This document shows positions 1,360 through 26,968 of a stretch of 36,855 nt of DNA, piece after piece. Each line of letters begins with the position of its first letter. Positions within the stretch are counted from its first letter, which is position 1. Source of the DNA: Rhodospirillales bacterium (lineage in GTDB: Bacteria; Pseudomonadota; Alphaproteobacteria; Rhodospirillales; JAPHTL01). Under the pieces are notes generated by a model. The model was not told the DNA's origin and did no database searches. It saw nothing but the letters and a program-made list of their open reading frames with translations. The stretch spans positions 1 to 36,855 of the forward strand of contig JAPHTL010000308.1 in assembly GCA_026193355.1 (NCBI GenBank), given 5' to 3'. Both the position numbers and the translations under genes were made by a program.

Positions 1360-2460
<1,101 letters not shown>

Positions 2461-2509
2461 TCATATTCCAGCGCTCTTTACGGATTTTTCCAAATAGGTT
2501 AGGTTGCTC

Positions 2510-2531
2510 TTGACGTTTACGTAAACGTCAA
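2510..2531. promoter_or_regulatory. Perfect 22-bp palindrome TTGACGTTTACGTAAACGTCAA, candidate operator upstream of icmF
   Basis: Sequence equals its own reverse complement across 22 bp; lies 55 bp upstream of the icmF start codon. Confidence 0.7.
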
Positions 2532-2585
2532 TTAAAGGCCGTATCTTTTCAGGTAACTGCAAAAAAAATCAACAGTGGGGTTGAG

Positions 2586-5500
2586 ATGCCGGACGGGGCT
2601 TCAAACAGCAAAGACACAAAAGCCAAGACTTACAAAACGAAAAACATTGTGCGTTTTGTGACGGCGACCAGTCTTTTTGATGGGCATGATGCCTCGATCA
2701 ACATCATGCGGCGCATACTCCAGTCATCCGGGACTGAAGTCATTCACCTTGGCCACAACAGATCGGTCGAGGACGTTGTGACGGCTGCATTGCAGGAAGA
2801 TGTCAGCGGCATAGCCCTGAGTTCCTATCAGGGCGGTCACGTCGAATACTTCCAGTATATGGTCGATCTGCTGCGCGAACGCGGTGGCGAATCCATCAGG
2901 GTTTTCGGCGGCGGCGGCGGCGTTATCGTTCAGGAAGAAATCGAGCAACTTCAGGCATACGGCGTGTCACGCATTTATTCGCCATCGGACGGGCAGCGCA
3001 TGGGCCTGCAAGGCATGATCAACGATATGGTCAAGCGCGCCGATTTCGATCTGACCGCCAATATTCCGACAGATACAAAGCTGCTTGCGAACGGAGACCA
3101 TCGCGTCCTTGCGCGCATTCTGACAGGTCTGGAAAACAACGCCTACAATGAGGCGCAACGCAAAGATATCCACGATCTGGCGAATGCCCATAAAGATGTA
3201 CCGGTTCTTGGGATAACAGGAACCGGTGGCGCAGGAAAATCGTCACTGACAGACGAGGTTATCCGGCGCTTCCGTCTTTATTCTGGTGAGCCGAAAATCG
3301 CCGTTCTGGCCATCGATCCGACTCGCCGCAAAAGCGGCGGCGCGCTGCTCGGCGATCGCATAAGGATGAACGCCATAGCTGCGCCCAATGTCTTTATGCG
3401 TTCGATTGCAACACGTAGCCACGGCACGGAGGTTCCACCATCGGTTCCCGATATGGTCGCGGCATGCAAGGCCGCTGGCTTCGATCTGGTTATTGTCGAA
3501 ACCCCCGGTATTGGTCAGGGCGACGCAGGAATTGTTCCCCTTGTCGATGTCTCGCTTTATGTGATGACGCCTGAATTCGGCGCCGCCAGCCAGCTTGAAA
3601 AGATCGACATGCTGGACTTCGCCGACATTGTCGCCATCAACAAATTCGATCGCAAAGGGGCCATGGACGCCCTCCGTGACGTTTCCAAGCAGATGCAGCG
3701 AAACCGCGAGGCGTTTGATACATCGCCCGATCAAATGCCTGTATTCGGTACGATTGCGGCGCGATTCAACGATCCCGGCGTGACTGCCCTTCACGCAAAC
3801 CTTCTCGATCAATTTAACCAGCGCGGTCTGGGCAAATGGCAGACTGCCACCGCAACCATATCCACCCGCCATTCGGAACCGGGCGCGGGGATCGTGCCTG
3901 CAACCCGTGTGCGCTATCTGGCCGAAATCGCCGATACCGTTCGCGGCTACCATCAGGACATTGAAAAACAGGTCGCTATCGCCCGTGACCATCAACACCT
4001 TCGCGAAGCGGGCAAAATGCTTGCTGATTCCGGGAAGTCGAATGCAGAACTGGACGAGCTTGCGGCAAAAAAGGCGGAAACGCTTGATCCGCGAGCGAGG
4101 AAGCTCCTCGAAATATGGCCGCAGGTCAAAGAAAGCTATTCGGGTGACGAGTACGTGGTTCGCATCCGTGATCGCGAGATCAGGACTGCCCTGACACACA
4201 CGACCCTGTCGGGTACGAAAATCCCGAAGGTCTGTTTGCCGCGATACGAAGATGATGGCGAAATACTGAAGTGGCTTCTCAAGGAAAACGTCCCGGGCAG
4301 CTTCCCCTATACAGCGGGTGTTTTTGCCTTCAAACGTGAAGGCGAGGATCCCACACGCATGTTTGCGGGGGAAGGGGATGCATTCCGGACAAACCGCCGA
4401 TTCCGGATGTTATCGGAAGGCATGCCGGCAAAGCGCCTGTCCACGGCGTTCGATTCCGTCACGCTGTATGGATACGACCCAGCCGAGCGCCCTGATATTT
4501 ACGGAAAGATCGGCAATGCCGGTGTTTCCATCGCGACGCTGGAGGATATGAAGGTTCTCTATTCAGGGTTCGATCTTTGCAACCCGTCCACATCCGTTTC
4601 CATGACAATAAACGGTCCTGCGCCGACGATTCTGGCGATGTTCATGAACACCGCCATCGACCAACAGGTTGACAAATTCAAGGATGAAAACGGCAGGCAG
4701 CCGACCGATGAAGAAATAGAGAAAATCTCCGAATGGGTTTTCGAAAATGTTCGCGGCACAGTTCAGGCCGACATTCTGAAAGAGGACCAGGGACAAAACA
4801 CCTGCATTTTCTCGACCGAATTCGCCCTGCGGATGATGGCGGACATTCAGGCGTTTTTCGTGCAACACCGGGTGCGTAATTTCTATTCCGTTTCAATCTC
4901 CGGCTATCACATAGCCGAAGCGGGTGCGAACCCGATCTCACAGTTGGCCCTGACACTTTCCAATGGTTTCACCTACGTTGAAACCTACCTTGCGCGTGGG
5001 ATGCACATTGATGACTTTGCGCCCAACCTGTCCTTCTTCTTCTCAAACGGAATGGATCCCGAATATTCGGTGATGGGACGGGTCGCCCGCCGGATATGGG
5101 CGACGACAATGCGCTTCAAATATGGCGCGAACGAACGCTCACAGAAGCTCAAGTACCACACGCAAACCTCTGGCCGCTCCCTGCATGCGCAGGAAATGGC
5201 ATTCAACGATATCCGGACAACCCTTCAGGCGTTGATCGCAACCTACGACAACACGAACAGCCTGCACACCAACGCCTATGACGAAGCGGTAACGACGCCC
5301 ACAGATGAATCCGTGCGTCGCGCGTTGGCCATTCAGTTGGTGATCAACAGGGAATGGGGGCTGGCGAAGAATGAAAATCCTAATCAGGGCGCTTTCATCA
5401 TCGATGAACTGACAGATCTTGTCGAAGAAGCCGTTTTGAAGGAGTTTGAGCGGATTTCCGAACGGGGCGGTGTACTCGGCGCCATGGAAACGGGCTACCA

Positions 5501-5852
5501 GCGTGGCAAGATCCAGGACGAATCCCTTTATTACGAACACCGCAAGCACGACGGCAGTTATCCGATCGTCGGCGTCAATACATTCCTCAATCCCGATGGT
5601 CCGGAGAACATTCCGACACCGGATCTGGCGCGATCAACAGAGGACGAGAAAAAGAGCCAAATTCAGCGGCTTGCGGATTTCCAGAAGACCAATAGCCGTG
5701 AGGCTGAGGCCATGCTGGAACGCCTGAAATCAGCGGCAACGAATGATGAAAATGTATTCGCGGTGCTGATGGAGGCCGTCAGGCTATGTTCACTAGGGCA
5801 GATCACCGATGCGTTGTTCAGTGTCGGGGGGCAATACAGACGAAACATGTAG
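2586..5852 (+). CDS. icmF: Fused acyl-CoA mutase IcmF (B12-binding domain + G3E/MeaI-like GTPase + mutase domain)
   Basis: N-terminal [16 protein letters not shown]12-binding domain; P-loop [43 protein letters not shown] and [24 protein letters not shown] mutase signatures; 1088 aa fused architecture. Confidence 0.95.
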
Positions 5853-26569: not shown

Positions 26570-26968
26570 GTGACGAAAACTGAGAAATCGCCAACGGCTT
26601 TCCGCACCATCAGCGAAGTTGCTGGTGATCTTGATCTTCCGCAACACGTTCTTCGTTTCTGGGAAAGCAAGTTCCCCCAGGTTCATCCACTGAAACGCGG
26701 TGGTGGTCGTCGTTACTATCGCCCCGAAGACATCGCGATTCTCAAACGCATACGCGTTCTTCTTCATGATGAAGGGTATACGATTCGCGGCGTTCAGAAA
26801 TTGCTGCGCGATGAATCATCTTCGTCCGATGGTGCGGCACAGGCTGAAACAGCAGGAAGTCACGATTCTTCTGGTGTGCAAATCGATAGCGGCGCCCGTG
26901 AAGTCTTGACCGCCGCCATCAATGAACTCGAAGACATGAAACGGCTTTTGCAGCGCACCGTTGGCTGA
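26570..26968 (+). CDS. MerR family transcriptional regulator
   Basis: [72 protein letters not shown] start; conserved position after ihfA. Confidence 0.93.

Follow-up and report, generated by a model that had tools for sequence, protein, structure and literature searches.

The window, by which we mean the whole 36,855-nt stretch of Rhodospirillales DNA analyzed here, contains near its left end two divergently oriented genes separated by a short intergenic region, in which lies the palindrome TTGACGTTTACGTAAACGTCAA (2510-2531). The gene to its right, icmF (2586..5852, forward strand), starts with an ATG after a gap of 54 nt and is the predicted target. Its product combines B12-binding, MeaB GTPase and mutase domains in a single chain according to Pfam, and finds its best structural match in a fused isobutyryl-CoA mutase (PDB 4XC6, residues 19-1088), so the name icmF, earlier given on the basis of the letters, is correct. 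The gene to the left (1360..2454, reverse strand) encodes delta-aminolevulinate dehydratase, HemB (PF00490, E 2.8e-138); its start is uncertain, with a TTG at 2454 or an ATG near 2427 as candidates. The adjacency of hemB and icmF, which spans 1360-5852 in the window, recurs at four loci of surveyed relatives (L012, L013, L022 and L023). Rechecking of sequence and coordinates confirmed exactly that the palindrome is a perfect 22-bp dyad, identical to its own reverse complement; it contains three ACGT units with 6-bp spacing. No other perfect palindrome of 22 bp or more exists in the window, where about 0.01-0.02 would be expected (0.02 in 300 Markov-1 simulations), a value of the same order as the 0.009 estimated in the earlier note. 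That note was also right that the liv operon of the window carries no second copy; with up to 3 mismatches allowed, no further copies were found in the window and none in shuffled sequences.

Orthologues of icmF were drawn from 60 order-level relatives and from named genomes, and the 400 nt before the protein start were scored against the core TNACGTTNACGTNAACGTNA, a site being defined as a match with at most 2 mismatches out of 16. Of 88 icmF orthologues from alpha-, beta- and gammaproteobacteria, 52 carry such a match before the gene (0 mismatches in 39 loci, 1 in 9, 2 in 4); 12 more icmF loci were left out of this count, as the N-terminal motif used could not place them. The distribution of best matches is bimodal: beyond the 52 loci with a site, three show 4 or 5 mismatches and the rest at least 6, while control stretches taken from inside icmF (n = 207) never come closer to the core than 5 mismatches. 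When only this genome and its relatives are considered, the site is present at 17 of 20 icmF loci. Of the three loci without it, two are from genomes of a single genus in which the regulator is missing, and the third is from G021, which possesses only a paralogue of the regulator. Thus, absence of the palindrome from the icmF orthologues of relatives, which the earlier note had regarded as a reason to abandon the operator, is not what we observe. Judged by sequence comparison, the palindrome is a genuine and conserved operator, of a kind that is already known. The site is absent from 36 of the 88 orthologues, therefore icmF is not an obligatory member of the regulon.

The genome itself is available as a 2.37-Mb draft (89% complete). 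Genome scans were carried out with patterns allowing up to 3 mismatches, from which weaker sites may escape; at up to 2 mismatches the draft contains four sites, every one with at most one mismatch, against a single two-mismatch match and no one-mismatch match of the reversed control pattern. Apart from icmF, the sites precede a divergent gene pair for an enoyl-CoA hydratase and a hotdog thioesterase, an acyl-CoA synthetase gene with liv-type ABC transporter genes behind it (livGHM/F operon), and a CoA-transferase III gene that is followed by genes for thiolase and 3-hydroxyacyl-CoA dehydrogenase. All four copies thus stand before acyl-CoA genes, and the random scatter that the earlier note had named as a possible refutation is not seen. 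The proposal that the regulon centers on the mutase rather than on transport is not borne out, since one of the four sites precedes the acyl-CoA synthetase-livGHM/F operon and the commonest target among the relatives is liuA. The contig that carries liuA in this genome (C211) starts inside the thioesterase gene preceding liuA, and therefore the liuA promoter region is missing from the assembly.

We assigned 60 sites, including the four described above, by comparing the genes that follow them. Isovaleryl-CoA dehydrogenase (liuA) follows 15 of them, enoyl-CoA hydratase 13 and a MerR gene 7; most of the remaining assigned sites precede genes for hotdog thioesterases, acyl-CoA synthetase or an HSD10-like SDR, and two sites, one of which is the lone site of the small genome G042, were left unassigned. 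This tally describes the regulon and is no blind test of it, because the reference proteins came from genes beside the sites. Together with the LiuR loci of the named genomes, it places the site before both liuA and liuR genes; for instance, the Marinobacter operon comprising merR and the genes for isovaleryl-CoA dehydrogenase, methylcrotonyl-CoA carboxylase and HMG-CoA lyase has a site just upstream. At two loci, L209 (G036) and L213 (G015), the site has a LivG-type ABC transporter gene on one side and a PAS-domain-like sensor gene on the other, and transport and sensing genes may be part of the regulon in the family of these genomes. In three genomes of one family (L188, L191 and L194), the acyl-CoA synthetase site is common to a divergent aconitase-like gene.

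LiuR belongs to the MerR family and represses branched-chain amino acid utilization (PMC3223726). It occurs in 15 taxonomic groups of proteobacteria (PMC5343134), and its orthologue in Rhodospirillum rubrum is preceded by an ILV box (PMC7238569). The earlier note had compared the palindrome to operators of this type, and its suggestion, although it remains a prediction, is well supported by the conservation of the icmF site, by the acyl-CoA targets and by co-occurrence with LiuR. Sites were found in 23 of the 60 order-level genomes, and a LiuR-like MerR protein is encoded in 21 of those 23 (Fisher p 1.6e-9 for co-occurrence over the 60 genomes, relatedness ignored). One of the two exceptions is G042, whose lone site is equalled by the control pattern. 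The other is G037, whose icmF contig (L012) has the same match scores and lengths as that of G025 (L013), a genome placed in a different family; this identity and the 7% contamination of G037 suggest that the contig is probably a foreign contaminant. Among the named genomes, LiuR is present in all 25 chosen for having an icmF site and in 16 of the 25 chosen without one (relatedness again ignored), so that in both sets the occurrence of the site tracks the presence of LiuR. Seven gammaproteobacterial loci have a MerR gene that lies upstream of icmF and is encoded on the other strand. In five of them (L067, L094, L105, L107 and L120) the two genes flank the site; at L093 and L104 the distance from the MerR gene to icmF is larger, and the search upstream of the MerR gene did not reach a site. 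A phylogenetic tree groups the icmF-adjacent MerR proteins with that of the Marinobacter leucine-degradation operon in one clade (99/99). That the site is conserved, which genes it precedes and that it co-occurs with LiuR-like genes can be read directly from the genomes compared, and on this basis we consider it highly probable that a LiuR-family repressor of the MerR superfamily uses the palindrome as its operator. The presumed match to the published LiuR motif rests on the association with regulon and regulator, and no NCBIfam model for LiuR was matched. The window also contains a MerR-family gene of its own (26570-26968), downstream of genes predicted from gene order to be plsX-fabH-ihfA-like; its product was rejected as a candidate binder, as it is not LiuR-like (LiuR profile E 0.0018).

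We take LiuR proper to be the most probable binder in this organism, its gene perhaps being located in the part that was not assembled; the other candidate is a paralogue encoded on contig C37. Clade-B LiuR was not found in the draft, where the only LiuR-like protein is this clade-A paralogue from a fadD-merR-fadA-fadB operon. If the paralogue were the binder, the operator would tie icmF to the control of fatty-acid rather than branched-chain metabolism, a reading that we regard as the less probable of the two. A degenerate site (3 mismatches out of 16) is indeed found 76 nt upstream of the C37 MerR gene, as it is before some of its clade-A orthologues, and Kazakov et al. 2009 reportedly predicted that LiuR orthologues control fatty-acid degradation in alphaproteobacteria, a role that the fad operon context resembles. 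However, the degeneracy of its own site sets the C37 protein apart from such regulators, and the sites of relatives track clade B and not clade A: clade B is present in every other surveyed genome that has both sites and a clade-A protein. LiuR proper is favored because G021, a 100% complete genome, encodes IcmF and the clade-A MerR and has neither clade B nor a site before icmF. The incompleteness of the present assembly, in which even the liuA promoter is lost from C211, likewise argues against reading too much into the paralogue being the sole LiuR-like protein seen. A more specific scenario, to which we assign a slightly lower probability still, is that the clade-A, fatty-acid-linked paralogue took over the LiuR operators in this lineage and joined branched- and straight-chain acyl-CoA breakdown; IcmF would then be a bridge between isobutyryl-CoA and butyryl-CoA under one regulator of both pathways.

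Binding by a TetR-family regulator (LiuQ/FadP-like or other) appears very improbable: proteins of this family often bind palindromes of such size, and three or four TetR_N matches occur in the genome, but no site is present at the three TetR loci that were scanned, while the sites track the LiuR-like MerR across genomes and stand directly before liuR genes, and MerR genes adjoin icmF in gammaproteobacteria. That the palindrome is a chance occurrence, or a transcript hairpin or terminator devoid of operator function, can be practically dismissed, since even at the low expectation given above single palindromes do arise, but this one is retained in three proteobacterial classes, ahead of icmF as well as of further acyl-CoA genes, and no terminator-like site was found.

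We infer the following mode of action, in which binding, repression and inducer are all tentative and repression is assigned by analogy, being taken from the LiuR literature. A LiuR-family dimer would bind the 22-bp dyad in the hemB-icmF intergenic region, keeping icmF expression low until products of branched-chain amino acid or acyl-CoA breakdown, the presumed inducers, accumulate and relieve repression. The enoyl-CoA hydratase/thioesterase pair, the acyl-CoA synthetase-liv operon and the CoA-transferase III operon would be derepressed together with icmF in this organism, as would liuA and liuR in its relatives, and IcmF could then interconvert valine-derived isobutyryl-CoA and n-butyryl-CoA. 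IcmF requires the tetrapyrrole cofactor B12, for which reason the operator, located in the shared intergenic region, might affect hemB too.

IcmF is an enzyme of biotechnological use whose physiological role is unclear. Our analysis assigns icmF to the branched-chain/acyl-CoA regulon in numerous proteobacteria and thereby suggests that isobutyryl-CoA from valine is the enzyme's natural substrate supply. The useful part of the result is this link between icmF and the LiuR regulon, as the operator itself is of a known kind. LiuR and icmF were not found named together in the papers searched, and a search for the letters of the motif returned nothing relevant. The system resembles the proteobacterial LiuR regulon in regulator clade, targets (liuA, liuR and acyl-CoA genes) and proteobacterial range, and differs from it in the icmF target, as far as the papers searched show, and in the absence of clade-B LiuR from the draft.

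The proposal that the first six bases of the palindrome, TTGACG, serve as a -35 element was not supported: no -10 hexamer lies 16-18 nt downstream in the window, none is recurrent at that spacing among 51 loci, and it was not possible to locate a promoter in the window. TATAAT-like hexamers abut the left edge of the operator in 6 of the 51 loci and the right edge in 5; these counts are small, and a placement that varies in this way is more easily reconciled with a blocking repressor than with activation of the MerR type, which requires a fixed spacer. CueR, ZntR and SoxR share the fold and HTH family (their NCBIfam matches are far below the cut-off), but they are activators with operators in a 19-20 bp promoter spacer, whereas no such promoter is seen here and the position of the -10-like hexamer varies among loci. 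The operators also vary in extent: at L011, L024, L199 and L217 some are prolonged by a fourth ACGT unit, with the 6-bp step retained, or overlap with another copy, which suggests tandem binding.
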